From the NCBI RefSeq assembly GCF_964204865.1, contig NC_135264.1, positions 7,222,001-7,286,000 of the forward strand: a stretch of DNA of 64,000 bases, in the 5' to 3' direction. Under the pieces are notes generated by a model. It was not told the DNA's origin. It made no database searches and was given only the letters and a program-made list of their open reading frames with translations. Both the position numbers and the translations under genes were made by a program. Below are positions 1-20,819 of the stretch, piece after piece. The stretch comes from Styela clava (taxonomy: Eukaryota; Chordata; Ascidiacea; Stolidobranchia; Styelidae). Numbering within the stretch: the stretch's first letter is position 1; the number at the start of each line of letters is the position of its first letter.

Positions 1-56
1 CTTTATCGCCTACAACCATACCACGTTGAATGCACCCGATCTCGTTCGATCTCGGA

Positions 57-71
57 AGTTAAGCAATGTCG
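57..71 (+). promoter_or_regulatory. Intragenic A box of copy 1 (representative)
   Basis: Gene positions 50-64 read AGTTAAGCAATGTCG, aligning with the A box of type 1 polymerase III promoters as known from vertebrate 5S genes. It is present in nearly all copies. Changes inside it recur at 54-57, 60-61, 63 and 64. Confidence 0.8.
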
Positions 72-73
72 GG

Positions 74-79
74 CTCGGT
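74..79 (+). promoter_or_regulatory. Intragenic intermediate element of copy 1 (representative)
   Basis: Gene positions 67-72, CTCGGT, sit where the intermediate element of the TFIIIA-binding internal control region lies. The same bases form helix V with 103-108 (ACCGAG) in the RNA. Confidence 0.65.
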
Positions 80-86
80 TAGTACT

Positions 87-104
87 TGCATGGGTGACCG
101 GCTG
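87..104 (+). promoter_or_regulatory. Intragenic C box of copy 1 (representative)
   Basis: Gene positions 80-97 read TGCATGGGTGACCGGCTG, aligning with the C box bound by TFIIIA zinc fingers in 5S genes. The RNA from this stretch forms helix IV with a GUGA loop (87-90). Relative to human 5S, C82 and G94 are exchanged for G and C, which keeps the pair. Confidence 0.75.
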
Positions 105-125
105 GGAATACCGAGTGTCGTAGGC

Positions 126-129
126 TTTT
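126..129 (+). terminator. T4 polymerase III terminator of copy 1 (representative)
   Basis: Gene positions 119-122 are TTTT directly after the helix I strand GTCGTAGGC, the usual polymerase III stop. The run is T5 in copies with C123T, T8 in nine copies, and broken to TTCT in copies 18, 26 and 34. Confidence 0.85.
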
Positions 130-147
130 CGTCGCCGTTTCATTCGA

Positions 148-161
148 TTTTCCTCTGTTTT
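148..161 (+). terminator. Backup T-runs downstream of copy 1 (representative)
   Basis: Two more T4 runs at 148-151 and 158-161 (unit positions 141-144 and 151-154) recur in nearly every spacer. They would stop polymerase that reads through the first T-run. Backup terminators are common at polymerase III genes; function here is inferred. Confidence 0.5.
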
Positions 162-176
162 CCAACAACTGCGAAA

Positions 177-184
177 TACAAATA
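177..184 (+). promoter_or_regulatory. TATA-like element upstream of copy 2 (representative)
   Basis: TACAAATA lies at -31 to -24 from the gene start and recurs at the same place in almost all spacers. Upstream TATA-like elements near -30 assist 5S transcription in several invertebrates and fungi. Its use here is inferred from position and conservation. Confidence 0.5.
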
Positions 185-207
185 GCCGAATAGACTACTA
201 CTTTATC

Positions 208-316
208 GCCTACAACCATACCACGTTGAATGCACTCGATCTCGGAAGTTAAGCAATGTCGGGCTCGGTTAGTACTTGCATGGGTGACCGGCTGGGAATA
301 CCGAGTGTCGTAGGCT
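208..316 (+). pseudogene. 5S copy 2, short-T form, likely pseudogene
   Basis: Lacks 10 nt of helix III/loop C, leaving CACTCGATCTCGG where the consensus has 23 nt (26-48). The result equals loss of 29-38, or of one unit of a near-perfect internal 10-bp repeat (29-38 and 39-48). The internal promoter is intact and T5 follows, so it may be transcribed, but the RNA should not form the ribosomal protein binding arm. Later short-T copies have the same lesion. Confidence 0.7.
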
Positions 317-397
317 TTTTGTCGCCGTTTCATTCGATTTTGCTCTGTTTTCCAACAACTGCGAAATACAAATAGCCGAATAGACTACTACTTTATC

Positions 398-516
398 GCC
401 TACAACCATACCCCGTTGAATGCACCCGTTATCGTTCGATCTCGGAAGTTAAGCAATGTCAGGCTCGGTTAGTACTTGCATGGGTGACCGGCTGGGAATA
501 CCGAGTGTCGTAGGCT
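398..516 (+). rRNA. 5S rRNA copy 3
   Basis: A16C, A32T, C34A, G64A. The A32T+C34A pair (GTTATC) is a recurring haplotype, and G64A changes the last A-box base. Confidence 0.92.
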
Positions 517-597
517 TTTCGTCGCCGTTTCATTCGATTTTGCTCTGTTTTCCAACAACTGCGAAATACAAATAGCCTAATAGACTACTTCTTTATC

Positions 598-716
598 GCC
601 TACAACCATACCACGTTGAATGCACCCGATCTCGTTCGATCTCGGAAGTTAAGCAATGTCGGGCTCGGTTAGTACTTGCATGGGTGACCGGCTGGGAATA
701 CCGAGTGTCGTAGGCT
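598..716 (+). rRNA. 5S rRNA copy 4
   Basis: Matches consensus. Confidence 0.96.
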
Positions 717-797
717 TTTCGTCGCCGTTTCATTCGATTTTGCTCTGTTTTCCAACAACTGCGAAATACAAATAGCCGAATAGACTAGTACTTTATC

Positions 798-916
798 GCC
801 TACAACCATACCACGTTGAATGCACCCGATCTCGTTCGATCTCGGAAGTTAAGCAATGTCGGGCTCGGTTAGTACTTGCATGGGTGACCGGCTGGGAATA
901 CCGAGTGTCGTAGGCT
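798..916 (+). rRNA. 5S rRNA copy 5
   Basis: Matches consensus; the upstream spacer has GACTAGTAC. Confidence 0.96.
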
Positions 917-997
917 TTTCGTCGCCGTTTCATTCGATTTTGCTCTGTTTTCCAACAACTGCGAAATACAAATAGCCGAATAGACTACTACTTTATC

Positions 998-1116
998 GCC
1001 TACAACCATACCACGTTCAATGCACCCGATCTCGTTCGATCTCGGAAGTTAGGCAATGTCGGGCTCGGTTAGTACTTGCATAGGTGACCGGCTGGGAATA
1101 CCGAGTGTCGTAGGTT
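998..1116 (+). rRNA. 5S rRNA copy 6
   Basis: G21C, A55G, G85A, C118T. Four private changes, one in the A box and one ending helix I, suggest reduced function. Confidence 0.88.
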
Positions 1117-1197
1117 TTTCGTCGCCGTTTCGTTCGATTTTGCTCTGTTTTCCAACAACTGCGAAATACAAATAGCCGAATAGACTACTACTTTATC

Positions 1198-1315
1198 GCC
1201 TACAACCATACCACGTTGAATGCACCCGATCTCGTCGATCTCGGAAGTTAAGCAATGTCGGGTTCGGTTAGTACTTGCATGGGTGACCGGCTGAGAATAC
1301 CGAGTGTCGTAAGCT
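1198..1315 (+). rRNA. 5S rRNA copy 7 (1-nt deletion)
   Basis: One T of 38-39 lost, C67T, G98A, G116A. Founder-type example of a linked haplotype that also has CGTCGTCG and GCTGTG in its spacer. Confidence 0.87.
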
Positions 1316-1396
1316 TTTCGTCGTCGTTTCATTCGATTTTGCTGTGTTTTCTAACAACTGCGAAATATAAATAGCCGAATAGACTACTACTTCATC

Positions 1397-1515
1397 GCCT
1401 ACAACCATACCACGTTGAATGCTCCCGATCTTGTTCGATCTCGGAAGTTAAGCAATGTCGGGCTTGGTTAGAACTTGCATGGGTGACCGGCTGGGAATAC
1501 CGAGTGTCGTAGGCT
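1397..1515 (+). rRNA. 5S rRNA copy 8
   Basis: A27T, C36T, C69T (a recurring trio), T76A. Confidence 0.92.
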
Positions 1516-1596
1516 TTTCGTCGCCGTTTCATTCGATTTTGCTCTGTTTTCCAACAACTGCGAAATACAAATAGCCGAATAGACTACTACTTTATC

Positions 1597-1715
1597 GCCT
1601 ACAACCATACCACGGTGAATGCCCCCGATCTCGTTCGATTTCGGAAGTTAAGCAATGTCGGGCTCGGTGAGTACTTGCATGGGTGACCGGCTGGGAATAC
1701 CGAGTGTCGTAGGCT
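1597..1715 (+). rRNA. 5S rRNA copy 9
   Basis: T19G, A27C, C44T, T73G. T19G breaks the T19-A59 pair of helix II. Confidence 0.9.
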
Positions 1716-1796
1716 TTTCGTCGCCGTTTCATTCGATTTTGCTCTGTTTTCCAACAACTGCGAAATACAAATAGCCGAATAGACTACTACTTTATT

Positions 1797-1914
1797 GCCT
1801 ACAACCATACCACGTTGAATGCACCCGATCTCGTCGATCTCGGAAGTTAAGCAATGTCGGGTTTGGTTAGTACTTGCATGGGTGACCGGCTGGGAATACC
1901 GAGTGTCGTAAGCT
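1797..1914 (+). rRNA. 5S rRNA copy 10 (1-nt deletion)
   Basis: One T of 38-39 lost, C67T, C69T, G116A. Confidence 0.87.
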
Positions 1915-1995
1915 TTTCGTCGTCGTTTCATTCGATTTTGCTGTGTTTTCTAACAACTGCGAAATACAAATAGCCGAATAGACTACTACTTCATC

Positions 1996-2114
1996 GCCTA
2001 CAACCATACCACGTTGAATGCTCCCGATCTTGTTCGATCTCGGAAGTTAAGCAATGTCGGGCTTGGTTAGTACTTGCATGGGTGACCGGCTGGGAATACC
2101 GAGTGTCGTAGGCT
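1996..2114 (+). rRNA. 5S rRNA copy 11
   Basis: A27T, C36T, C69T. Confidence 0.94.
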
Positions 2115-2195
2115 TTTCGTCGCCGTTTCATTCGATTTTGCTCTGTTTTCTAACAACTGCGAAATACAAATAGCCGAATAGACTACTACTTTATC

Positions 2196-2314
2196 GCCTA
2201 CAACCATACCACGGTGAATGCACCCGATCTCGTTCGATCTCGGAAGTTAAGCAATGTCGGGCTCGGTTAGTACTTGCATGGGTGACCGGCTGGGAATACC
2301 GAGTGTCGTAGGCT
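2196..2314 (+). rRNA. 5S rRNA copy 12
   Basis: T19G. Confidence 0.94.
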
Positions 2315-2395
2315 TTTCCTCGCCGTTTCATTCGATTTTGCTCTGTTTTCCAACAGCTGCGAAATACAAATAGCCGAATAGACTACTACTTTATT

Positions 2396-2514
2396 GCCTA
2401 CAACCATACCACGTTGAATGCACCCGATCTCGTTCGATCTCGGAAGTTAAGAAATGTCGGGCTCGGTTAGTACTTGCATGGGTGACCGGCTGGGAATACC
2501 GAGTGTCGTAGGCT
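2396..2514 (+). rRNA. 5S rRNA copy 13
   Basis: C57A in the A box. Followed by a T8 terminator and a diverged spacer (CCGTTCCATTCG), 4 bp longer than usual. Confidence 0.92.
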
Positions 2515-2599
2515 TTTTTTTCGTCGCCGTTCCATTCGTTTTTTCTCTGTTTTCTAACAACTGCAAAATGCAAATAGCAGAACAGACTACTACTTTATC

Positions 2600-2718
2600 G
2601 ACTACAACCATACCACGTTGAATGCACCCGATCTCGTTCGATCTCGGAAGTTAAGCAATGTCGGGCTCGGTTAGTACTTGCATGGGTGACCGGCTGGGAA
2701 TACCGAGTGTCGTAGGCT
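2600..2718 (+). rRNA. 5S rRNA copy 14
   Basis: C2A, opening the second base pair of helix I. Confidence 0.93.
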
Positions 2719-2799
2719 TTTCGTCGCCGCTTCATTCGATTTTGCTCTGTTTTCCAACAACTGCAAAATACAAATAGCCGAATAGACTACTACTTTATC

Positions 2800-2918
2800 G
2801 CCTACAACCATACCACGTTGAATGCACCCGATCTCGTTCGATCTCGGAAGTTAAGCAATGTCGGGCTCGGTTAGTACTTGCATGGGTGACCGGCTGGGAA
2901 TATCGAGTGTCGTAGGAT
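2800..2918 (+). rRNA. 5S rRNA copy 15
   Basis: C104T, C118A. Confidence 0.93.
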
Positions 2919-2999
2919 TTTCGTCGCCGTTTCATTCGATTTTGCTCTGTTTTCCAACAACTGCGAAATACAAATAGCCGAATAGACTACTACTTTATC

Positions 3000-3118
3000 G
3001 CCTACAACCATACCACGTTGAATGCACCCGATCTCGTTCGATCTCGGAAGTTAAGCAATTTCGGGCTCGGTTAGTACTTGCATGGGTGACCGGCTGCGAA
3101 TACCGAGTGTCGTAGGCT
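3000..3118 (+). rRNA. 5S rRNA copy 16
   Basis: G61T, G98C. Confidence 0.93.
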
Positions 3119-3199
3119 TTTCGTCGCCGTTTCATTCGATTTTGCTCTGTTTTCCAACAACTGCGAAATACAAATAGCCGAATAGACTACTACTTTATC

Positions 3200-3318
3200 G
3201 CCTACAACCATACCACGTTGAATGCACCCGATCTCGTTCGATCTCGGAAGTTAAGCAATGTCGGGCTCGGTTAGTACTTGCATGGGTGACCGGCTGGGAA
3301 TACCGAGTGTCGTAGGCT
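3200..3318 (+). rRNA. 5S rRNA copy 17
   Basis: Matches consensus; T5. Confidence 0.96.
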
Positions 3319-3399
3319 TTTTGTCGCCGTTTCATTCGATTTTGCTCTGTTTTCCAACAACTGCGAAATACAAATAGCCGAATAGACTACTACTTTATC

Positions 3400-3518
3400 G
3401 CCTACAACCATACCACGTTGAATGCACCCGATCTCGTTCGATCTCGGAAGTTAAGCAATGTCGGGCTCGGTTAGTACTTGCATGGGTGACCGGCTGGGAA
3501 TACCGAGTGTCGTAGGCT
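3400..3518 (+). rRNA. 5S rRNA copy 18
   Basis: Gene matches consensus, but the first T-run is broken (TTCT). Termination would depend on later T-runs. Confidence 0.94.
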
Positions 3519-3599
3519 TCTCGTCGCCGTTTCATTCGAGTTTGCTCTGTTTTCCAACAACTGCGAGATACAAATAGCCGAATAGACTACTACTTTATC

Positions 3600-3718
3600 G
3601 CCTACAACCATACCACGTTGAATGCACCCGATCTCGTTCGATCTCGGAAGTTAAGCAATGTCGGGCTCGGTTAGTACTTGCATGGGTGACCGGCTGGGAA
3701 TACCGAGTGTCGTAGGCT
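3600..3718 (+). rRNA. 5S rRNA copy 19
   Basis: Matches consensus; T5. Confidence 0.96.
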
Positions 3719-3799
3719 TTTTGTCGCCGTTTCATTCGATTTTGCTCTGTTTTCCAACAACTGCGAAATACAAATAGCCGAATAGACTACTACTTTATC

Positions 3800-3918
3800 G
3801 CCTACAACCATACCACGTTGAATGCACCCGTTATCGTTCGATCTCGGAAGTTAAGCAATGTCGGGCTCGGTTAGTACTTGCATGGGTGACCGGCTGGGAA
3901 TACCGAGTGTCGTAGGCT
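3800..3918 (+). rRNA. 5S rRNA copy 20
   Basis: A32T, C34A. Confidence 0.94.
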
Positions 3919-3999
3919 TTTCGTCGCCGTTTCATTCGATTTTGCTCTGTTTTCCAACAACTGCGAAATACAAATAGCCGAATAGACTACTACTTTATC

Positions 4000-4118
4000 G
4001 CCTACAACCATACCACGTTGAATGCACCCGATCTCGTTCGATCTCGGAAGTTAAGCAATGTCGGGCTCGGTTAGTACTTGCATGGGTGACCGGCTGGGAA
4101 TACCGAGTGTCGTAGGCT
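4000..4118 (+). rRNA. 5S rRNA copy 21
   Basis: Matches consensus; T5. Confidence 0.96.
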
Positions 4119-4199
4119 TTTTGTCGCCGTTTCATTCGATTTTGCTCTGTTTTCCAACAACTGCGAAATACAAATAGCCGAATAGACTACTACTTTATC

Positions 4200-4318
4200 G
4201 CCTACAACCATACCACGTTGAATGCACCCGATCTCGTTCGATCTCGGAAGTTAAGCAATGTCGGGCTCGGTTAGTACTTGCATGGGTGACCGGCTGGGAA
4301 TACCGAGTGTCGTAGGCT
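4200..4318 (+). rRNA. 5S rRNA copy 22
   Basis: Matches consensus. Confidence 0.96.
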
Positions 4319-4399
4319 TTTCGTCGCCGTTTCGTTCGATTTTGCTCTGTTTTCCAACAACTGCGAAATACAAATAGCTGAATAGACTACTACTTTATC

Positions 4400-4517
4400 G
4401 CCTACAACCATACCACGTTGAATGCACCCGATCTCGTCGATCTCGGAAGTTAAGCAATGTCGGGTTCGGTTAGTACTTGCATGGGTGACCGGCTGGGAAT
4501 ACCGGGTGTCGTAAGCT
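4400..4517 (+). rRNA. 5S rRNA copy 23 (1-nt deletion)
   Basis: One T of 38-39 lost, C67T, A107G, G116A. Confidence 0.87.
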
Positions 4518-4598
4518 TTTCGTCGTCGTTTCATTCGATTTTGCTGTGTTTTCTAACAACTGCGAAATACAAATAGCCGAATAGACTACTACTTCATC

Positions 4599-4717
4599 GC
4601 CTACAACCATACCACGTTGAATGCACCCGTTATCGTTCGATCTCGGAAGTTAAGCAATGTCGGGCTCGGTTAGTACTTGCATGGGTGACCGGCTGGGAAT
4701 ACCGAGTGTCGTAGGCT
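4599..4717 (+). rRNA. 5S rRNA copy 24
   Basis: A32T, C34A. Confidence 0.94.
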
Positions 4718-4798
4718 TTTCGTCGCCGTTTCATTCGATTTTGCTCTGTTTTCCAACAACTGCGAAATACAAATAGCCGAATAGACTGCTACTTTATC

Positions 4799-4917
4799 GC
4801 CTACAACCATACCACGTTGAATGCACCCGATCTCGTTCGATCTCGGAAGTTAAGCAATGTCGGGCTCGGTTAGTACTTGCATGGGTGACCGGCTGGGAAT
4901 ACCGAGTGTCGTAGGCT
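4799..4917 (+). rRNA. 5S rRNA copy 25
   Basis: Matches consensus; T5. Confidence 0.96.
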
Positions 4918-4998
4918 TTTTGTCGCCGTTTCATTCGATTTTGCTCTGTTTTCCAACAACTGCGAAATACAAATAGCCGAATAGACTACTACTTTATC

Positions 4999-5117
4999 GC
5001 CTACAACTTTACCACGTTGAATGCACCCGATCTCGTTCGATCTCGGAAGTTAAGCAATGTCGGGCTCGGTTAGTACTTGCATGGGTGACCGGCTGGGAAT
5101 ACCGAGTGTCGTAGGCT
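4999..5117 (+). rRNA. 5S rRNA copy 26
   Basis: C10T, A11T; first T-run broken (TTCT). Confidence 0.92.
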
Positions 5118-5198
5118 TCTCGTCGCCGTTTCATTCGATTTTGCTCTGTTTTCCAACAACTGCGAAATACAAATAGCCGAATAGACTACTACTTTATC

Positions 5199-5317
5199 GC
5201 CTACAACCATACCACGTTGAATGCACCCGATCTCGTTCGATCTCGGAAGTTAAGCAATGTCGGGCTCGGTTAGTACTTGCATGGGTGACCGGCTGGGAAT
5301 ACCGAGTGTCGTAGGCT
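5199..5317 (+). rRNA. 5S rRNA copy 27
   Basis: Matches consensus. Confidence 0.96.
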
Positions 5318-5398
5318 TTTCGTCGCCGTTTCATTCGATTTTGCTCTGTTTTCCAACAACTGCGAAATACAAATAGCCGAATAGACTACTACTTTATC

Positions 5399-5517
5399 GC
5401 CTACAACCATACCACGTTGAATGCACCCGATCTCGTTCGATCTCGGAAGTTAAGCAATGTCGGGCTCGGTTAGTACTTGCATGGGTGACCGGCTGGGAAT
5501 ACCGAGTGTCGTAGGCT
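5399..5517 (+). rRNA. 5S rRNA copy 28
   Basis: Matches consensus; T5. Confidence 0.96.
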
Positions 5518-5598
5518 TTTTGTCGCCGTTTCATTCGATTTTGCTCTGTTTTCCAACAATTGCGAAATACAAATAGCCGAATAGACTACTACTTTATC

Positions 5599-5717
5599 GC
5601 CTACAACCATACCACGTTGAATGCACCCGATCTCGTTCGATCTCGGAAGTTAAGCAACTTCGGGCTCGGTTAGTACTTGCATTGGTGACCGGCTGGGAAT
5701 ACCGAGTGTCGTAGGCT
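5599..5717 (+). rRNA. 5S rRNA copy 29
   Basis: T60C, G61T, G85T. T60C turns the G18-T60 wobble into G-C, while G61T breaks C17-G61. Confidence 0.91.
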
Positions 5718-5798
5718 TTTCGTCGCCGTTTCATTCGATTTTGCTCTGTTTTCCAACAACTGCGAAATACAAATAGCCGAATAGACTACTACTTTATC

Positions 5799-5917
5799 GC
5801 CTACAATCACACCACGTTGAATGCACCCGATCTCGTTCGATCTCGGAAGTTAAGCAATGTCGGGCTCGGTTAGTACTTGCATGGGTGACCGGCTGGGAAT
5901 ACCGAGTGTCGTAGGCT
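5799..5917 (+). rRNA. 5S rRNA copy 30
   Basis: C9T, T12C. Confidence 0.93.
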
Positions 5918-5998
5918 TTTCGTCGCCGTTTCGTTCGATTTTGCTCTGTTTTCCAACAACTGCGAAATACAAATAGCTGAATAGACTACTACTTTATC

Positions 5999-6116
5999 GC
6001 CTACAACCATACCACGTTGAATGCACCCGATCTCGTCGATCTCGGAAGTTAAGCAATGTCGGGTTCGGTTAGTACTTGCATGGGTGACCGGCTGGGAATA
6101 CCGGGTGTCGTAAGCT
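5999..6116 (+). rRNA. 5S rRNA copy 31 (1-nt deletion)
   Basis: One T of 38-39 lost, C67T, A107G, G116A; same gene as copy 23. Confidence 0.87.
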
Positions 6117-6197
6117 TTTCGTCGTCGTTTCATTCGATTTTGCTGTGTTTTCTAACAACTGCAAAATACAAATAGCCGAATAGACTACTACTTCATC

Positions 6198-6316
6198 GCC
6201 TACAACCATACCACGTTGAATGCACCCGTTATCGTTCGATCTCGGAAGTTAAGCAATGTCGGGCTCGGTTAGTACTTGCATGGGTGACCGGCTGGGAATA
6301 CCGAGTGTCGTAGGCT
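6198..6316 (+). rRNA. 5S rRNA copy 32
   Basis: A32T, C34A. Confidence 0.94.
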
Positions 6317-6397
6317 TTTCGTCGCCGTTTCATTCGATTTTGCTCTGTTTTCCAACAACTGCGAAATACAAATAGCCGAATAGACTGCTACTTTATC

Positions 6398-6516
6398 GCC
6401 TACAACCATACCACGTTGAATGCACCCGATCTCGTTCGATCTCGGAAGTTAAGCAATGTCGGGCTCGGTTAGTACTTGCATGGGTGACCGGCTGGGAATA
6501 CCGAGTGTCGTAGGCT
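6398..6516 (+). rRNA. 5S rRNA copy 33
   Basis: Matches consensus; T5. Confidence 0.96.
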
Positions 6517-6597
6517 TTTTGTCGCCGTTTCATTCGATTTTGCTCTGTTTTCCAACAACTGCGAAATACAAATAGCCGAATAGACTACTACTTTATC

Positions 6598-6716
6598 GCC
6601 TACAACTTTACCACGTTGAATGCACCCGATCTCGTTCGATCTCGGAAGTTAAGCAATGTCGGGCTCGGTTAGTACTTGCATGGGTGACCGGCTGGGAATA
6701 CCGAGTGTCGTAGGCT
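6598..6716 (+). rRNA. 5S rRNA copy 34
   Basis: C10T, A11T; first T-run broken (TTCT), as in copy 26. Confidence 0.92.
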
Positions 6717-6797
6717 TCTCGTCGCCGTTTCATTCGATTTTGCTCTGTTTTCCAACAACTGCGAAATACAAATAGCCGAATAGACTACTACTTTATC

Positions 6798-6916
6798 GCC
6801 TACAACCATACCACGTTGAATGCACCCGATCTCGTTCGATCTCGGAAGTTAAGCAATGTCGGGCTCGGTTAGTACTTGCATGGGTGACCGGCTGGGAATA
6901 CCGAGTGTCGTAGGCT
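6798..6916 (+). rRNA. 5S rRNA copy 35
   Basis: Matches consensus. Confidence 0.96.
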
Positions 6917-6997
6917 TTTCGTCGCCGTTTCATTCGATTTTGCTCTGTTTTCCAACAACTGCGAAATACAAATAGCCGAATAGACTACTACTTTATC

Positions 6998-7115
6998 GCC
7001 TACAACCATACCACGTTGAATGCACCCGATCTCGTCGATCTCGGAAGTTAAGCAATGTCGGGTTCGGTTAGTACTTGCATGAGTGACCGGCTGGGAATAC
7101 CGAGTGTCGTAAGCT
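6998..7115 (+). rRNA. 5S rRNA copy 36 (1-nt deletion)
   Basis: One T of 38-39 lost, C67T, G86A, G116A. Confidence 0.87.
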
Positions 7116-7196
7116 TTTCGTCGTCGTTTCATTCGATTTTGCTGTGTTTTCTAACAACTGCGAAATACAAATAGCCGAATAGACTACTACTTCATC

Positions 7197-7315
7197 GCCT
7201 ACAACCATACCACGTTGAATGCTCCCGATCTTGTTCGATCTCGGAAGTTAAGCAATGTCGGGCTTGGTTAGTACTTGCATGGGTGACCGGCTGGGAATAC
7301 CGACTGTCGTAGGCT
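7197..7315 (+). rRNA. 5S rRNA copy 37
   Basis: A27T, C36T, C69T, G108C. Confidence 0.92.
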
Positions 7316-7396
7316 TTTCGTCGCCGTTTCATTCGATTTTGCTCTGTTTTCCAACAACTGCGAAATACAAATAGCCGAATAGACTACTACTTTATC

Positions 7397-7515
7397 GCCT
7401 ACAACCATACCACGGTGAATGCACCCGATCTCGTTCGATTTCGGAAGTTAAGCAATGTCGGGTTCGGTTAGTACTTGCATGGGTGACCGGCTGGGAATAC
7501 CGAGTGTCGTAGGCT
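7397..7515 (+). rRNA. 5S rRNA copy 38
   Basis: T19G, C44T, C67T. Confidence 0.92.
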
Positions 7516-7596
7516 TTTCGTCGCCGTTTCATTCGATTTTGCTCTGTTTTCCAACAACTGCGAAATACAAATAGCCGAATAGACTACTACTTTATT

Positions 7597-7714
7597 GCCT
7601 ACAACCATACCACGTTGAATGCACCCGATCTCGTCGATCTCGGAAGTTAAGCAATGTCGGGTTCGGTTAGTACTTGCATGGGTGACCGGCTGGGAATACC
7701 GAGTGTCGTAAGCT
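7597..7714 (+). rRNA. 5S rRNA copy 39 (1-nt deletion)
   Basis: One T of 38-39 lost, C67T, G116A. Confidence 0.87.
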
Positions 7715-7795
7715 TTTCGTCGTCGTTTCATTCGATTTTGCTGTGTTTTCTAACAACTGCGAAATACAAATAGCCGAATAGACAACTACTTCATC

Positions 7796-7914
7796 TCCTA
7801 CAACCATACCACGTTGAATGCTCCCGATCTTGTTCGATCTCGGAAGTTAAGCAATGTCGGGCTTGGTTAGTACTTGCATGGGTGACCGGCTGGGAATACC
7901 GAGTGTCGTAGGCT
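7796..7914 (+). rRNA. 5S rRNA copy 40
   Basis: G1T, A27T, C36T, C69T. Confidence 0.92.
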
Positions 7915-7995
7915 TTTCGTCGCCGTTTCATTCGATTTTGCTCTGTTTTCTAACAACTGCGAAATACAAATAGCCGAATAGACTACTACTTTATC

Positions 7996-8114
7996 GCCTA
8001 CAACCATACCACGGTGAATGCACCCGATCTCGTTCGATCTCGGAAGTTAAGCAATGTCGGGCTCGGTTAGTACTTGCATGGGTGACCGGCTGGGAATACC
8101 GAGTGTCGTAGGCT
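7996..8114 (+). rRNA. 5S rRNA copy 41
   Basis: T19G; spacer CTTCGCCATTTC. Confidence 0.94.
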
Positions 8115-8195
8115 TTTCTTCGCCATTTCATTCGATTTTGCTCTGTTTTCCAACAACTGCGAAATACAAATAGCCGAATAGACTACTACTTTATT

Positions 8196-8314
8196 GCCTA
8201 CAACCATACCACGTTGAATGCACCCGATCTCGTTCGATCTCGGAAGTTAAGAAATGTCGGGCTCGGTTAGTACTTGCATGGGTGACCGGCTGGGAATACC
8301 GAGTGTCGTAAGCT
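8196..8314 (+). rRNA. 5S rRNA copy 42 (chimeric)
   Basis: C57A as in copies 13 and 45, but G116A and the downstream spacer as in copy 39. It looks like an unequal-crossover junction. Confidence 0.92.
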
Positions 8315-8395
8315 TTTCGTCGTCGTTTCATTCGATTTTGCTGTGTTTTCTAACAACTGCGAAATACAAATAGCCGAATAGACTACTACTTCATC

Positions 8396-8514
8396 TCCTA
8401 CAACCATACCACGTTGAATGCTCCCGATCTTGTTCGATCTCGGAAGTTAAGCAATGTCGGGCTTGGTTAGTACTTGCATGGGTGACCGGCTGGGAATACC
8501 GAGTGTCGTAGGCT
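8396..8514 (+). rRNA. 5S rRNA copy 43
   Basis: G1T, A27T, C36T, C69T; duplicate of copy 40. Confidence 0.92.
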
Positions 8515-8595
8515 TTTCGTCGCCGTTTCATCCGATTTTGCTCTGTTTTCTAACAACTGCGAAATACAAATAGCCGAATAGACTACTACTTTATC

Positions 8596-8714
8596 GCCTA
8601 CAACCATACCACGGTGAATGCACCCGATCTCGTTCGATCTCGGAAGTTAAGCAATGTCGGGCTCGGTTAGTACTTGCATGGGTGACCGGCTGGGAATACC
8701 GAGTGTCGTAGGCT
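8596..8714 (+). rRNA. 5S rRNA copy 44
   Basis: T19G; duplicate of copy 41. Confidence 0.94.
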
Positions 8715-8795
8715 TTTCTTCGCCATTTCATTCGATTTTGCTCTGTTTTCCAACAACTGCGAAATACAAATAGCCGAATAGACTACTACTTTATT

Positions 8796-8914
8796 GCCTA
8801 CAACCATACCACGTTGAATGCACCCGATCTCGTTCGATCTCGGAAGTTAAGAAATGTCGGGCTCGGTTAGTACTTGCATGGGTAACCGGCTGGGAATACC
8901 GAGTGTCGTAGGCT
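8796..8914 (+). rRNA. 5S rRNA copy 45
   Basis: C57A, G89A; T8 terminator and diverged spacer as after copy 13. Confidence 0.91.
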
Positions 8915-8999
8915 TTTTTTTCGTCGCCGTTCCATTCGTTTTTTCTCTGTTTTCTAACAACTGCAAAATACAAATAGCAGAACAGACTACTACTTTATC

Positions 9000-9118
9000 G
9001 ACTACAACCATACCACGTTGAATGCACCCGATCTCGTTCGATCTCGGAAGTTAAGCAATGTCGGGCTCGGTTAGTACTTGCATGGGTGACCAGCTGGGAA
9101 TACCGAGTGTCGTAGGCT
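9000..9118 (+). rRNA. 5S rRNA copy 46
   Basis: C2A, G93A. G93A makes the T84-G93 wobble a Watson-Crick pair. Confidence 0.93.
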
Positions 9119-9199
9119 TTTCGTCGCCGCTTCATTCGATTTTTCTCTGTTTTCCAACAACTGCAAAATACAAATAGCCGAATAGACTACTACTTTATC

Positions 9200-9318
9200 G
9201 CCTACAACCATACCACGTTGAATGCACCCGATCTCGTTCGATCTCGGAAGTTAAGCAATGTCGGGCTCGGTTAGTACTTGCATGGGTGACCGGCTGGGAA
9301 TATCGAGTGTCGTAGGCT
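9200..9318 (+). rRNA. 5S rRNA copy 47
   Basis: C104T. Confidence 0.94.
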
Positions 9319-9399
9319 TTTCGTCGCCGTTTCATTCGATTTTGCTCTGTTTTCCAACAACTGCGAAATACAAATAGCCGAATAGACTACTACTTTATC

Positions 9400-9518
9400 G
9401 CCTACAACCATACCACGTTGAATGCACCCGATCTCGTTCGATCTCGGAAGTTAAGCAATGTCGGGCTCGGTTAGTACTTGCATGGGTGACCGGCTGCGAA
9501 TACCGAGTGTCGTATGCT
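9400..9518 (+). rRNA. 5S rRNA copy 48
   Basis: G98C, G116T; spacer CGTCGCGG. Confidence 0.93.
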
Positions 9519-9599
9519 TTTCGTCGCGGTTTCATTCGATTTTGCTCTGTTTTCAAACAACTGCGAAATACAAATAGCCGAATAGACTACTACTTTATC

Positions 9600-9718
9600 G
9601 CCTACAACCATACCACGTTGAATGCACCCGATCTCGTTCGATCTCGGAAGTTAAGCAATGTCGGGCTCGGTTAGTACTTGCATGGGTGACCGGCTGGGAA
9701 TACCGAGTGTCGTAGGCT
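9600..9718 (+). rRNA. 5S rRNA copy 49
   Basis: Matches consensus; T5. Confidence 0.96.
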
Positions 9719-9799
9719 TTTTGTCGCCGTTTCATTCGATTTTGCTCTGTTTTCCAACAACTGCGAAATACAAATAGCCGAATAGACTACTACTTTATC

Positions 9800-9918
9800 G
9801 CCTACAACCATACCACGTTGAATGCACCCGATCTCGTTCGATCTCGAAAGTTAAGCAATGTCGGGCTCGGTTAGTACTTGCATGGGTGACCGGCTGGGAA
9901 TACCGAGTGTCGTAGGCT
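9800..9918 (+). rRNA. 5S rRNA copy 50
   Basis: G48A; T5. Confidence 0.94.
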
Positions 9919-9999
9919 TTTTGTCGCCGTTTCATTCAATTTTGCTCTGTTTTCCAACAACTGCGAAATACAAATAGCCGAATAGACTACTACCTCATC

Positions 10000-10118
10000 G
10001 CCTACAACCATACCACGTTGAATGCACCCGTTATCGTTCGATCTCGGAAGTTAAGCAATGTCGGGCTCGGTTAGTACTTGCATGGGTGACCGGCTGGGAA
10101 TACCGAGTGTCGTAGGCT
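10000..10118 (+). rRNA. 5S rRNA copy 51
   Basis: A32T, C34A. Confidence 0.94.
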
Positions 10119-10199
10119 TTTCGTCGCCGTTTCATTCGATTTTGCTCTGTTTTCCAACAACTGCGAAATACAAATAGCCGAATAGACTACTACTCTATC

Positions 10200-10318
10200 G
10201 CCTACAACCATACCACGTTGAATGCACCCGATCTCTTTCGATCTCGGAAGTTAATCAATGTCGGGCTCGGTTAGTACTTGCATGGGTGACCGGCTGGGAA
10301 TACCGAGTGTCGTAGGCT
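10200..10318 (+). rRNA. 5S rRNA copy 52
   Basis: G37T, G56T (A box). Confidence 0.93.
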
Positions 10319-10399
10319 TTTCGTCGCCGTTTCATTCGATTTTGCTCTGTTTTCCAACAACTGCGAAATACAAATAGCCGAATAGACTACTACTTTATT

Positions 10400-10508
10400 G
10401 CCTACAATCATACCACGTTGAATGCACTCGATCTCGGAAGTTAAGCAATGTCGGGCTCGGTTAGTACTTGCATGGGTGACCGGCTGGGAATACCGAGTGT
10501 CGTAGGCT
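10400..10508 (+). pseudogene. 5S copy 53, short-T form, likely pseudogene
   Basis: 10-nt loss as in copy 2, plus C9T; T5. Confidence 0.7.
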
Positions 10509-10589
10509 TTTTGTCGCCGTTTCATTCGATTTTGCTCTGTTTTCCAACAACTGCGAAATACAAATAGCCGAATAGACTACTACTTTATC

Positions 10590-10708
10590 GCCTACAACCA
10601 TACCACGTTGAATGCACTCGATCTCGTTCGATCTCGGAAGTTAAGCAATGTCGGGCGCGGTTAGTACTTGCATGGGTGACCGGCTGGGAATACCGAGTGT
10701 CGTAGGCT
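10590..10708 (+). rRNA. 5S rRNA copy 54
   Basis: C29T, T68G. C29T makes the internal 10-bp repeat 9/10 identical. Confidence 0.93.
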
Positions 10709-10789
10709 TTTCGTAGCCGTTTCATTCGATTTTGCTCTGTTTTCCAACAACTGCGAAATACAAATAGCCGAATAGACTACTACTTTATC

Positions 10790-10908
10790 GCCTACAACCA
10801 TACCACGTTGAATGCACCCGATCTCGTTCGATCTCGGAAGTTAAGCAATGTCGGGCTCGGTTAGTACTTGCATGGGTGACCGACTGGGAATACCGAGTGT
10901 CGTAGGCT
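10790..10908 (+). rRNA. 5S rRNA copy 55
   Basis: G94A; C123G after the T4 run. Confidence 0.94.
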
Positions 10909-10989
10909 TTTGGTCGCCGTTTCATTCGATTTTGCTCTGTTTTCCAACAATTGCGAAATACAAATAGCCGAATAGACTACTACTTTATC

Positions 10990-11108
10990 GCCTACAACCA
11001 TACCACGTTGAATGCACCCGATCTCGTTCGATCTCGGAAGTTAAGCAATGTCGGGCTCGGTTAGTACTTGCATGGGTGACCGGCTGGGAATACCGAGTGT
11101 CGTAGGCT
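10990..11108 (+). rRNA. 5S rRNA copy 56
   Basis: Matches consensus. Confidence 0.96.
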
Positions 11109-11189
11109 TTTCGTCGCCGTTTCATTTGATTTTGCTCTGTTTTCCAACAACTGCGAAATACAAATAGCCGAATAGACTACTACTTTATC

Positions 11190-11307
11190 GCCTACAACCA
11201 TACCACGTTGAATGCACCCGATCTCGTTCGATCTCGGAAGTTAAGCAATGTCGGGCTCGGTTAGTACTTGCATGGGTGACCGGCTGGAATACCGAGTGTC
11301 GTAGGCT
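11190..11307 (+). rRNA. 5S rRNA copy 57 (1-nt deletion)
   Basis: One G of 97-99 lost, next to the C box. Confidence 0.87.
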
Positions 11308-11388
11308 TTTCGTCGCCGTTTCGTTCGATTTTGTTCTGTTTTCCAACAACTGCGAAATACAAATAGCCGAATAGACTACTGTTTAATC

Positions 11389-11507
11389 GCCTACAACCAT
11401 ACCACGTTGAATGCACCCGATCTCGTTCGATCTCGGAAGTTAAGCAATGTCGGGCTCGGTTAGTACTTGCATGGGTGACCGGCTGGGAATACCGAGTGTC
11501 GTAGGCT
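11389..11507 (+). rRNA. 5S rRNA copy 58
   Basis: Gene matches consensus; its downstream spacer lacks 11 bp. Confidence 0.96.
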
Positions 11508-11577
11508 TTTCGTCGCCGTTTCATTCGATTTTGCTCTGTTTTCCAACAACTGCGAAATACAAATAGCCGAATTTACC

Positions 11578-11686
11578 GCCTACAACCATACCACGTTGAA
11601 TGCACCCGATCTCGGAAGTTAAGCAATGTCGGGCTCGGTTAGTACTTGCATGGGTGACCGGCTGGGAATACCGAGTGTCGTAGGCT
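11578..11686 (+). pseudogene. 5S copy 59, short-C form, likely pseudogene
   Basis: 10-nt loss leaving CACCCGATCTCGG, explained by slippage between the two CGATCTCG copies at 30-37 and 40-47. T4 follows. An 11-bp loss in the preceding spacer puts its TATA-like element at about -20. Confidence 0.7.
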
Positions 11687-11767
11687 TTTCGTCGCCGTTT
11701 CATTCGATTTTGCTCTGTTTTCTAACAATTGCGAAATACAAATAGCCGCATAGACTACTACTTTATC

Positions 11768-11886
11768 GCCTACAACCATACCACGTTGAATGCACCCGAT
11801 CTTGTTCGATCTCGGAAGTTAAGCAATGTCGGGCTTGGTTAGTACTTGCATGGGTGACCGGCTGGGAATACCGAGTGTCGTAGGCT
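11768..11886 (+). rRNA. 5S rRNA copy 60
   Basis: C36T, C69T. Confidence 0.94.
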
Positions 11887-11967
11887 TTTCGTCGCCGTTT
11901 CATTCGATTTTGCTCTGTTTTCTAACAACTGGGAAATACAAATAGCCGAATAGACTACTACTCCATC

Positions 11968-12086
11968 GCCTACAACCATACCACGGTGAATGCACCCGAT
12001 CTCGTTCGATCTCGGAAGTTAAGCAATGTCGTGCTCGGTTAGTACTTGCATGGGTGACCGTCTGCGAATACCGAGTGTCGTATGCT
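11968..12086 (+). rRNA. 5S rRNA copy 61
   Basis: T19G, G65T, G94T, G98C, G116T. The front resembles copy 81 and the back copy 48, suggesting a crossover chimera. Confidence 0.9.
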
Positions 12087-12167
12087 TTTCGTCGCGGTTT
12101 CATTCGATTTTGCTCTGTTTTCAAACAACTGCGAAATACAAATAGCCGAATAGACTACTACTTTATC

Positions 12168-12286
12168 GCCTACAACCATACCACGTTGAATGCACCCGAT
12201 CTCGTTCGATCTCGGAAGTTAAGCAATGTCGGGCTCGGTTAGTACTTGCATGGGTGACCGGCTGGGAATACCGAGTGTCGTAGGCT
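12168..12286 (+). rRNA. 5S rRNA copy 62
   Basis: Matches consensus; T5. Confidence 0.96.
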
Positions 12287-12367
12287 TTTTGTCGCCGTTT
12301 CATTCGATTTTGCTCTGTTTTCCAACAACTGCGAAATACAAATAGCCGAATAGACTACTACTTTATC

Positions 12368-12486
12368 GCCTACAACCATACCACGTTGAATGCACCCGAT
12401 CTCGTTCGATCTCGAAAGTTAAGCAATGTCGGGCTCGGTTAGTACTTGCATGGGTGACCGGCTGGGAATACCGAGTGTCGTAGGCT
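12368..12486 (+). rRNA. 5S rRNA copy 63
   Basis: G48A; T5. Confidence 0.94.
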
Positions 12487-12567
12487 TTTTGTCGCCGTTT
12501 CATTCAATTTTGCTCTGTTTTCCAACAACTGCGAAATACAAATAGCCGAATAGACTACTACCTCATC

Positions 12568-12686
12568 GCCTACAACCATACCACGTTGAATGCACCCGTT
12601 ATCGTTCGATCTCGGAAGTTGAGCAATGTCGGGCTCGGTTAGTACTTGCATGGGTGACCGGCTGGGAATACCGAGTGTCGTAGGCT
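12568..12686 (+). rRNA. 5S rRNA copy 64
   Basis: A32T, C34A, A54G. Confidence 0.93.
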
Positions 12687-12767
12687 TTTCGTCGCCGTTT
12701 CATTCGATTTTGCTCTGTTTTCCAACAACTGCGAAATACAAATAGCCGAATAGACTACTACTCTATC

Positions 12768-12886
12768 GCCTACAACCATACCACGTTGAATGCACCCGAT
12801 CTCTTTCGATCTCGGAAGTTAATCAATGTCGGGCTCGGTTAGTACTTGCATGGGTGACCGGCTGGGAATACCGAGTGTCGTAGGCT
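12768..12886 (+). rRNA. 5S rRNA copy 65
   Basis: G37T, G56T. Confidence 0.93.
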
Positions 12887-12967
12887 TTTCGTCGCCGTTT
12901 CATTCGATTTTGCTCTGTTTTCCAACAACTGCGAAATACAAATAGCCGAATAGACTACTACTTTATT

Positions 12968-13076
12968 GCCTACAATCATACCACGTTGAATGCACTCGAT
13001 CTCGGAAGTTAAGCAATGTCGGGCTCGGTTAGTACTTGCATGGGTGACCGGCTGGGAATACCGAGTGTCGTAGGCT
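12968..13076 (+). pseudogene. 5S copy 66, short-T form, likely pseudogene
   Basis: 10-nt loss, C9T, T5. The downstream spacer (CTAACAATTGCG) is that of the short-C lineage, so the unit looks chimeric. Confidence 0.7.
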
Positions 13077-13157
13077 TTTTGTCGCCGTTTCATTCGATTT
13101 TGCTCTGTTTTCTAACAATTGCGAAATACAAATAGCCGAATAGACTACTACTTTATC

Positions 13158-13276
13158 GCCTACAACCATACCACGTTGAATGCACCCGATCTTGTTCGAT
13201 CTCGGAAGTTAAGCAATGTCGGGCTTGGTTAGTACTTGCATGGGTGACCGGCTGGGAATACCGAGTGTCGTAGGCT
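13158..13276 (+). rRNA. 5S rRNA copy 67
   Basis: C36T, C69T. Confidence 0.94.
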
Positions 13277-13357
13277 TTTCGTCGCCGTTTCATTCGATTT
13301 TGCTCTGTTTTCTAACAACTGGGAAATACAAATAGCCGAATAGACTACTACTCCATC

Positions 13358-13476
13358 GCCTACAACCATACCACGGTGAATGCACCCGATCTCGTTCGAT
13401 CTCGGAAGTTAAGCAATGTCGTGCTCGGTTAGTACTTGCATGGGTGACCGGCTGCGAATACCGAGTGTCGTATGCT
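13358..13476 (+). rRNA. 5S rRNA copy 68
   Basis: T19G, G65T, G98C, G116T. Confidence 0.91.
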
Positions 13477-13557
13477 TTTCGTCGCGGTTTCATTCGATTT
13501 TGCTCTGTTTTCAAACAACTGCGAAATACAAATAGCCGAATAGACTACTACTTTATC

Positions 13558-13676
13558 GCCTACAACCATACCACGTTGAATGCACCCGATCTCGTTCGAT
13601 CTCGGAAGTTAAGCAATGTCGGGCTCGGTTAGTACTTGCATGGGTGACCGGCTGGGAATACCGAGTGTCGTAGGCT
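13558..13676 (+). rRNA. 5S rRNA copy 69
   Basis: Matches consensus; T5. Confidence 0.96.
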
Positions 13677-13757
13677 TTTTGTCGCCGTTTCATTCGATTT
13701 TGCTCTGTTTTCCAACAACTGCGAAATACAAATAGCCGAATAGACTACTACTTTATC

Positions 13758-13876
13758 GCCTACAACCATACCACGTTGAATGCACCCGATCTCGTTCGAT
13801 CTCGAAAGTTAAGCAATGTCGGGCTCGGTTAGTACTTGCATGGGTGACCGGCTGGGAATACCGAGTGTCGTAGGCT
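13758..13876 (+). rRNA. 5S rRNA copy 70
   Basis: G48A; T5. Confidence 0.94.
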
Positions 13877-13957
13877 TTTTGTCGCCGTTTCATTCAATTT
13901 TGCTCTGTTTTCCAACAACTGCGAAATACAAATAGCCGAATAGACTACTACCTCATC

Positions 13958-14076
13958 GCCTACAACCATACCACGTTGAATGCACCCGTTATCGTTCGAT
14001 CTCGGAAGTTAAGCAATGTCGGGCTCGGTTAGTACTTGCATGGGTGACCGGCTGGGAATACCGAGTGTCGTAGGCT
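13958..14076 (+). rRNA. 5S rRNA copy 71
   Basis: A32T, C34A. Confidence 0.94.
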
Positions 14077-14157
14077 TTTCGTCGCCGTTTCATTCGATTT
14101 TGCTCTGTTTTCCAACAACTGCGAAATACAAATAGCCGAATAGACTACTACTCTATC

Positions 14158-14276
14158 GCCTACAACCATACCACGTTGAATGCACCCGATCTCTTTCGAT
14201 CTCGGAAGTTAATCAATGTCGGGCTCGGTTAGTACTTGCATGGGTGACCGGCTGGGAATACCGAGTGTCGTAGGCT
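14158..14276 (+). rRNA. 5S rRNA copy 72
   Basis: G37T, G56T. Confidence 0.93.
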
Positions 14277-14357
14277 TTTCGTCGCCGTTTCATTCGATTT
14301 TGCTCTGTTTTCCAACAACTGCGAAATACAAATAGCCGAATAGACTACTACTTTATT

Positions 14358-14466
14358 GCCTACAATCATACCACGTTGAATGCACTCGATCTCGGAAGTT
14401 AAGCAATGTCGGGCTCGGTTAGTACTTGCATGGGTGACCGGCTGGGAATACCGAGTGTCGTAGGCT
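14358..14466 (+). pseudogene. 5S copy 73, short-T form, likely pseudogene
   Basis: 10-nt loss, C9T; T5. Confidence 0.7.
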
Positions 14467-14547
14467 TTTTGTCGCCGTTTCATTCGATTTTGCTCTGTTT
14501 TCCAACAACTGCGAAATACAAATAGCCGAATAGACTACTACTTTATC

Positions 14548-14666
14548 GCCTACAACCATACCACGTTGAATGCACTCGATCTCGTTCGATCTCGGAAGTT
14601 AAGCAATGTCGGGCGCGGTTAGTACTTGCGTGGGTGACCGGCTGGGAATACCGAGTGTCGTAGGCT
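14548..14666 (+). rRNA. 5S rRNA copy 74
   Basis: C29T, T68G, A83G. Confidence 0.92.
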
Positions 14667-14747
14667 TTTCGTAGCCGTTTCATTCGATTTTGCTCTGTTT
14701 TCCAACAACTGCGAAATACAAATAGCCGAATAGACTACTACTTTATC

Positions 14748-14866
14748 GCCTACAACCATACCACGTTGAATGCACCCGATCTCGTTCGATCTCGGAAGTT
14801 AAGCAATGTCGGGCTCGGTTAGTACTTGCATGGGTGACCGACTGGGAATACCGAGTGTCGTAGGCT
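14748..14866 (+). rRNA. 5S rRNA copy 75
   Basis: G94A; C123G. Confidence 0.94.
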
Positions 14867-14947
14867 TTTGGTCGCCGTTTCATTCGATTTTGCTCTGTTT
14901 TCCAACAATTGCGAAATACAAATAGCCGAATAGACTACTACTTTATC

Positions 14948-15066
14948 GCCTACAACCATACCACGTTGAATGCACCCGATCTCGTTCGATCTCGGAAGTT
15001 AAGCAATGTCGGGCTCGGTTAGTACTTGCATGGGTGACCGGCTGGGAATACCGAGTGTCGTAGGCT
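14948..15066 (+). rRNA. 5S rRNA copy 76
   Basis: Matches consensus. Confidence 0.96.
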
Positions 15067-15147
15067 TTTCGTCGCCGTTTCATTTGATTTTGCTCTGTTT
15101 TCCAACAACTGCGAAATACAAATAGCCGAATAGACTACTACTTTATC

Positions 15148-15265
15148 GCCTACAACCATACCACGTTGAATGCACCCGATCTCGTTCGATCTCGGAAGTT
15201 AAGCAATGTCGGGCTCGGTTAGTACTTGCATGGGTGACCGGCTGGAATACCGAGTGTCGTAGGCT
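15148..15265 (+). rRNA. 5S rRNA copy 77 (1-nt deletion)
   Basis: One G of 97-99 lost. Confidence 0.87.
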
Positions 15266-15346
15266 TTTCGTCGCCGTTTCGTTCGATTTTGTTCTGTTTT
15301 CCAACAACTGCGAAATACAAATAGCCGAATAGACTACTGTTTAATC

Positions 15347-15465
15347 GCCTACAACCATACCACGTTGAATGCACCCGATCTCGTTCGATCTCGGAAGTTA
15401 AGCAATGTCGGGCTCGGTTAGTACTTGCATGGGTGACCGGCTGGGAATACCGAGTGTCGTAGGCT
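15347..15465 (+). rRNA. 5S rRNA copy 78
   Basis: Matches consensus. Counterpart of copy 58 but with a full-length spacer. Confidence 0.96.
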
Positions 15466-15546
15466 TTTCGTCGCCGTTTCATTCGATTTTGCTCTGTTTT
15501 CCAACAACTGCGAAATACAAATAGCCGAATAGACTACTACTTTACC

Positions 15547-15655
15547 GCCTACAACCATACCACGTTGAATGCACCCGATCTCGGAAGTTAAGCAATGTCG
15601 GGCTCGGTTAGTACTTGCATGGGTGACCGGCTGGGAATACCGAGTGTCGTAGGCT
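15547..15655 (+). pseudogene. 5S copy 79, short-C form, likely pseudogene
   Basis: 10-nt loss as in copy 59. Confidence 0.7.
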
Positions 15656-15736
15656 TTTCGTCGCCGTTTCATTCGATTTTGCTCTGTTTTCTAACAATTG
15701 CGAAATACAAATAGCCGCATAGACTACTACTTTATC

Positions 15737-15855
15737 GCCTACAACCATACCACGTTGAATGCACCCGATCTTGTTCGATCTCGGAAGTTAAGCAATGTCG
15801 GGCTTGGTTAGTACTTGCATGGGTGACCGGCTGGGAATACCGAGTGTCGTAGGCT
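15737..15855 (+). rRNA. 5S rRNA copy 80
   Basis: C36T, C69T. Confidence 0.94.
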
Positions 15856-15936
15856 TTTCGTCGCCGTTTCATTCGATTTTGCTCTGTTTTCTAACAACTG
15901 GGAAATACAAATAGCCGAATAGACTACTACTCCATC

Positions 15937-16055: not shown

Positions 16056-16138
16056 TTTTGTCGCCGTTTCATTCGATTTTGCTCTGTTTTCCAACAACTG
16101 CGAAATACAAATAGCCGAATAGACTACTACTTTATATC

Positions 16139-20814: not shown

Positions 20815-20819
20815 TTTCG

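Follow-up and report, generated by a model that had tools for sequence, protein, structure and literature searches.

Short 5S rRNA genes in a Styela clava tandem array as probable repeat-mediated deletion variants carried in duplicated blocks

The window, the whole 64,000-nt stretch of DNA analyzed here (contig positions 7222001-7286000), is a single head-to-tail 5S rDNA array in which 31 of 322 aligned units (9.6%) carry a 10-nt deletion in helix III and loop C of the gene. The deletion is real, correctly counted, and ordinary, most likely a repeat-mediated loss multiplied by array dynamics. The short copies are very probably deletion variants that formed between direct repeats and then increased in number as passengers of multi-unit blocks, which unequal crossover or conversion duplicated. 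What was observed comprises two junctions, a repeat whose offset is 10 nt, the block duplications, a preferred neighbor, and one mixed copy; the slippage event is one that we infer. A sequence-only reading had counted 31 copies with the same deletion, about one in ten, and this count held; the 31st copy (63921) is cut by the window end, with its deletion still visible.

The array and its short copies

Tandem Repeats Finder assigned the whole window a period of 200 bp (321.5 copies). We obtained 322 gene starts by stepping along the array and then aligned the units. Gene-start spacings in the window were 200 (259 cases), 190 (30), 199 (17), and 204 (9), with a few others, and the gene consensus was matched exactly by 65 of 321 genes.

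1..64000 (+): tandem 5S rDNA array, period 200, with a 118-nt gene and a spacer of about 82 nt; 322 gene starts

The repeated gene is 5S rRNA. Rfam family RF00001 gave 30 matches in the first 6 kb, where 30 complete genes sit; scoring took in positions 1 to 6000, the other 30 deletion copies lying outside it, and all 30 complete copies there, including one deletion copy, passed the gathering cutoff of 38. Copy 2 (208-315), without the 10 nt, matched at 208-316 with 84.2 bits versus 104.9 for a full-length neighbor, a loss of 20.7 bits. The complete helix III and loop C expected of a 5S gene are lacking in 31 of the 322 copies, and these defective copies are interspersed among intact units with the same spacers, as in pseudogene variants. 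Other irregular units were also seen. In one (20696-20953), 58 bp from the 3′ part of the gene, with the C box region and the T-run among them, are duplicated in tandem. In nine units the gene is followed by four additional T's, so that the run there is eight T's long, and each of the nine has T133C and A140T in its spacer.

Units with four extra T's: 2396, 8796, 20954, 22138, 24732, 25916, 40248, 58953, 61529

The sequence-only reading had assumed one shared junction, which proved incorrect. Two junctions occur in the window, CACTCGATCTCGG in 26 of 31 copies (class A) and CACCCGATCTCGG in the other 5 (class B), the latter on a different linked haplotype: all class B copies (11578, 15547, 20506, 21748, and 25526) carry the spacer variants C156T and C162T. 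C123T was found in 24 of 26 class A copies, the exceptions being 43051, which lacks it, and 63921, truncated where the window stops. A C box region variant, G81A, is common to eight deletion copies. The deletion copies are as follows.

208..315 (+): first-noted deletion copy, class A, 108 nt (alignment, Rfam)
233..245 (+): class A junction CACTCGATCTCGG, with a predicted mini helix III at 236-238/243-245 and its loop at 239-242
10400..10507 (+): C9T subgroup of class A
11578..11685 (+): class B, junction CACCCGATCTCGG
12968..13075 (+): probable crossover product, with C9T-like gene and left neighbors and class B-like C156T/C162T and right neighbor
14358..14465 (+): C9T subgroup of class A
15547..15654 (+): class B
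16539..16646 (+): C9T subgroup of class A
17529..17636 (+): C9T subgroup of class A
19318..19425 (+): C9T subgroup of class A
20506..20613 (+): class B
21558..21665 (+): G81A subgroup of class A
21748..21855 (+): class B, immediately behind a class A copy
22742..22849 (+): G81A subgroup of class A
25336..25443 (+): G81A subgroup of class A; block copy of 21558 at an offset of 19 units
25526..25633 (+): class B; block copy of 21748 at an offset of 19 units
26520..26627 (+): G81A subgroup of class A
28510..28617 (+): G81A subgroup of class A
29700..29807 (+): G81A subgroup of class A
30290..30397 (+): G81A subgroup of class A
33080..33187 (+): G81A subgroup of class A
36670..36777 (+): class A; right neighbor with A32T, C34A, and G64A
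38859..38966 (+): C3T subgroup of class A
43051..43158 (+): class A, with G89C
43241..43348 (+): class A, immediately behind the 43051 copy
46030..46137 (+): C3T subgroup of class A
48020..48127 (+): C3T subgroup of class A
54791..54898 (+): class A
57163..57270 (+): class A
59739..59846 (+): class A; 13-unit block copy of 57163
61933..62040 (+): class A, with G61T (A box region)
63921..64000 (+): C3T subgroup of class A, truncated where the window stops

A direct repeat at the site of the deletion

The full-length copy reads CACC-CGATCTCG-TT-CGATCTCG-G across the affected region, placing one copy of an 8-bp repeat on each side of helix III. Among offsets of up to 60, the 200-bp unit has no other direct repeat of 7 bp or longer, and the next in length is 6 bp. 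In a full-length consensus copy (gene 598-715), the repeats lie as follows.

627..634 (+): left direct repeat CGATCTCG, gene positions 30-37
637..644 (+): right direct repeat CGATCTCG, gene positions 40-47; the offset of 10 equals the deletion size

The deletion would have arisen between the two repeats, by slippage or by short-repeat recombination. The class B junction is the exact product of removing one CGATCTCG together with TT. The class A junction (CACT...) has T in place of C beside the repeat and is not a clean product of the 8-bp repeat; it could have come from a C29T precursor, a later change, or mismatch correction. Nine intact copies with C29T occur in the window, but they carry other linked variants, so we propose a C29T source for class A only tentatively.

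Block duplication in the window, and deletion copies beyond it

Comparison of unit haplotypes identified 25 duplicated runs, each at least four units long. Together they take in 199 of 322 units and 21 of 31 deletion copies; when unit order was shuffled (100 shuffles), 0.01 such runs were found on average. The longest run comprises 18 units at a 19-unit offset (units 106-123 and 125-142) and includes three deletion copies, among them a class A copy with a class B copy directly after it. In the window, the unit after a class A copy has G64A 10 times out of 25 (hypergeometric P of about 1e-9). Copy 12968, in which the gene and left neighbors of the C9T group are joined to class B spacer variants and a class B right neighbor, is a probable product of unequal crossover, judging by these linked variants. 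Clustering of all 31 copies as a set was not significant (mean distance of 97.3 units versus 107.6 under the null; P = 0.12), and neither was that of the C3T subgroup (P = 0.14); local subfamilies were evident for C9T (P = 0.0006), G81A (0 of 5,000 shuffles), and class B (P = 0.008).

These block duplications, the preferred neighbor, and the crossover-like copy give good support to one option that the sequence-only reading had raised, that the short copies are passengers spread by unequal crossover. Blocks of several units would have been duplicated by unequal crossover or conversion, carrying deletion copies passively. The same reading had called the number and spread of these copies notable, a view that comparison with other variants does not bear out. 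The deletion is the seventh commonest among 197 called variants (a few of which come from the cut last unit or from alignment), so its count needs no special cause. Other common variants fall inside duplicated runs at similar rates: A32T in 23 of 35 copies, C36T in 12 of 20, T19G in 20 of 28, C69T in 21 of 33, G166A in 23 of 39, and C123T in 32 of 55. The deletion is a convenient marker, its junctions and linked variants allowing the copying and exchange of 5S array blocks to be traced. An 18-bp spacer deletion is common to three units (54610, 56981, and 59557), each directly before a class A copy.

We added flanks of 100 kb on each side of the window, which together with it make 264 kb, and 30 kb more on the right. 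The 264 kb hold three 5S blocks, at 7172172-7174438, at 7186664-7312894, and from 7349361 to the end of the stretch. With the window included, 824 units were counted, leaving out 11 partial BLAST matches without a gene start; four of the 824 were uncallable, and the 10-nt deletion was present in 70 of the remaining 820. Its share by stretch was 2/11, 10/130, 4/45, 31/322 (the window), 10/132, 11/115, and 2/65. Four junction forms were found, 39 of ACTCGATCTC, 25 of ACCCGATCTC, 5 of ACCCAATCTC, and 1 of ACTCAATCTC, with visibly different linked variants. Class A is confined to 7213633-7372087. Its G64A right-hand neighbor follows 23 of 40 class A copies over 158 kb, in both large blocks, and also two deletion copies outside class A. 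Farther right, at 7386001-7416000, no 10-nt deletion was found among 142 5S genes, and nine spacings were 348 bp; thus, the composition of the array changes along its length.

Tandem arrays are hard to assemble, and the deletion is known here from assembled sequence, which would be the case for regarding it as an assembly or sequencing artifact. We consider this exceedingly improbable: the two main junctions, which have separate sets of linked variants, are seen again in different blocks and also in a further 5S block on the same contig.

Other features of the flanks were recorded. An 84-bp insertion around gene position 26 interrupts the 5S gene of four units within 7299305-7307370, which form two pairs with about 7 kb between them. 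Between two of the 5S blocks (7313000-7349300) lie two copies of a transposon-like coding stretch, about 14.6 kb apart. One (7336828-7340196) is an open frame of 1,123 residues with a match to reverse transcriptase (RVT_1, E value of 2.4e-31) and one to an endonuclease family that falls just under the curated cutoff; the other (7322180-7325547) reads as two frames. The stretch looks like a non-LTR retrotransposon.

On a tree built from the rest of the unit (819 units), the 70 deletion copies required 34 steps. The corresponding values were 37 steps for 72 copies with A32T+C34A, 12 for 58 with C36T, and 4 for 41 with a one-base deletion at position 38. Since A32T+C34A needs a similar number of steps, the scatter may equally be due to units exchanging sequence, and we do not claim many separate origins; recurrent deletion on many backgrounds was set aside. 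We claim that the deletion arose at least once and probably two or three times, and we go no further than that. Within helix III, the A32T+C34A pair is itself about as common as the deletion in the window (A32T in 35 and C34A in 36 of 322 copies, nearly always together; copy 398 is an example), and several of the commonest gene variants lie at positions 29-38.

Promoters, predicted RNAs, and known truncated 5S genes

The limits of the A box, intermediate element, and C box in this array are assumed here to be those of Xenopus, shifted by one. With these limits, all three boxes were at the array consensus in 21 of 31 deletion copies and in 179 of 291 others (Fisher P = 0.56), the cut last copy (63921) being judged on its visible part; in the larger set, the values were 47 of 70 and 428 of 750 (P = 0.13). 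The sequence-only reading had described the promoter as kept. By the limits assumed here this would hold for the 21 copies; in the rest, not all boxes are at consensus, and undeleted copies are much alike. The same comparison gave no support for boxes specially preserved in deletion copies. Upstream, the TATA-like stretch AATACAAATAG (unit positions 168-178) is unchanged before 31 of 31 deletion copies and 271 of 290 others. All 40 nt upstream are unchanged in 22 of 31 deletion copies versus 143 of 290 others (Fisher P = 0.024), a difference that we do not read as selection because block-duplicated copies are not independent.

The distance from the start to the A box is 10 nt shorter in deletion copies. 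5S genes start on average about 50 bp upstream of the A box in one account (PMC12409998). Given this spacing and a deletion that lies between start site and A box, a start set by the internal promoter could shift about 10 nt upstream, while one set by the TATA-like AATACAAATAG would not. The 109-nt transcript that the sequence-only reading expected would thus be one of two expectations and is not assured.

RNAfold predicted the usual 5S layout for deletion copies, with a 3-bp stem closed by an AUCU loop. Minimum energies were -34.1 kcal/mol for class A and -37.2 for class B, compared to -39.6 for the full gene. Pair probabilities in the small stem were 0.97 to 1.0 in class B and 0.48 to 0.69 in class A, so that in this model the stem is likely in class B and weaker in class A. 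The short stem can refold because repeats lie on both sides of helix III and losing one leaves nearly the same letters. The copies had been said to lack the arm, which is too strong; the deletion takes away most of loop C and one of the two strands of helix III, and a short stem is predicted to re-form. According to PMC3257258, which cites Scripture and Huber 1995, the main determinants for ribosomal protein L5 in other eukaryotes lie in loop C and stem III, and loop A is the main TFIIIA site. Since most of loop C is gone, poor L5 binding by RNAs from deletion copies would be a fair expectation by analogy. A consensus promoter and a good Rfam score are no guarantee that a 5S gene has the L5-binding loop.

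Distinct substitutions per site were nearly equal in gene and spacer (0.90 and 0.91). The same was true of singletons (0.31 and 0.32); for variants present at least 8 times, the values were 0.14 and 0.20. These patterns suggest little visible purifying selection on single copies, so neutral carriage of a broken copy would not be surprising. In undeleted copies, the gene was less diverse (0.020, not counting region 29-38) than the spacer (0.034), which tells somewhat against that view and may reflect some constraint or conversion bias. Within class A, diversity was higher in the gene (0.013) than in the spacer (0.004), and over all deletion copies the two were about equal (0.014 and 0.016). We considered that the deletion copies might be decayed pseudogenes, which the counts did not bear out, as they have fewer other gene changes than undeleted copies (mean of 0.70, n = 30, versus 1.23, n = 291; positions 29-39 left out of both means), which is as expected of a recently multiplied variant; decay of this kind is not required of every pseudogene.

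Several readings would give the short genes a role. One, that ribosomes still accept their RNA despite its reduced helix III, draws on the lower three pairs of that helix, which can re-form with the repeat supplying nearly the same letters at the energies given above; most of loop C, the L5 contact, is missing, however, and the Rfam score falls by 20.7 bits, making this reading very unlikely. It is harder still to credit that the short genes are transcribed into a decoy or regulator, for example one that binds TFIIIA but not L5. The consensus boxes, intact AATACAAATAG, and upstream 40 nt would suit such a role, as would the general 5S fold kept in the RNAfold prediction, the separate binding sites of L5 and TFIIIA, and a T5 run present in 24 of 30 readable deletion copies versus 32 of 273 readable others. 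Yet boxes and TATA-like stretch are kept at similar rates in undeleted copies, and the T5 run goes with the linked C123T, which is also in 31 non-deletion copies, and the copies are not independent of one another. Nor does any deletion copy occur among the 142 genes in the 30 kb to the right of the fetched stretch.

A broader proposal, also very unlikely though slightly easier to entertain than these, is that the helix III repeat is a recurrent deletion site and that RNAs without loop C, made from deletion genes or started about 10 nt upstream, persist as a minor class that binds TFIIIA but L5 poorly. The repeat does offer a testable reason why a 5S gene might lose this arm repeatedly. One point against passive spread concerns positions 29-38, the most diverse region in undeleted copies (0.071): of the 17 gene substitutions that occur at least 8 times, 4 fall there, which passive drift does not account for by itself. 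We nonetheless prefer repeat-mediated deletion followed by passive multiplication in duplicated blocks. The deletion copies would then yield no functional 5S RNA and would be tolerated given the many other copies.

No report of a 10-bp deletion or slippage like this one in 5S genes was found among open-license PMC papers, and the exact deletion patterns had no match in collections of genome contigs and viral contigs. Truncated 5S copies are known, and a similar case has been described in the 5S arrays of Tribolium (PMC11202950), which we regard as a close precedent. The T. castaneum array has a 121-bp gene and a 71-bp spacer, with about 20 truncated pseudogenes described as randomly placed among complete genes; in T. 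freemani, 32 of 113 5S copies share a deletion and are pseudogenes according to the authors. As here, one deletion is common to many copies of a short-unit array. The Tribolium deletions are 30 bp and lie at a gene end, and the short T. freemani copies go with a Jockey-like element arrangement (PMC11202950), whereas the deletion described here removes 10 nt in helix III/loop C between direct repeats, upstream of the internal promoter boxes. In Pollicipes, two short 5S sequences were called pseudogenes for partial loss of the transcribed region (PMC3215682). The long 5S arrays of pike have a higher-order structure and resemble the present one in the uneven spread of variant units; there, spacer variants were followed in single reads and the authors judged most repeats probably functional, whereas here a gene variant is traced through duplicated blocks (PMC5437419). 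The present array adds a further case to these, one with a likely mechanism of deletion; its short genes illustrate a process already known and do not make up a gene type of their own.
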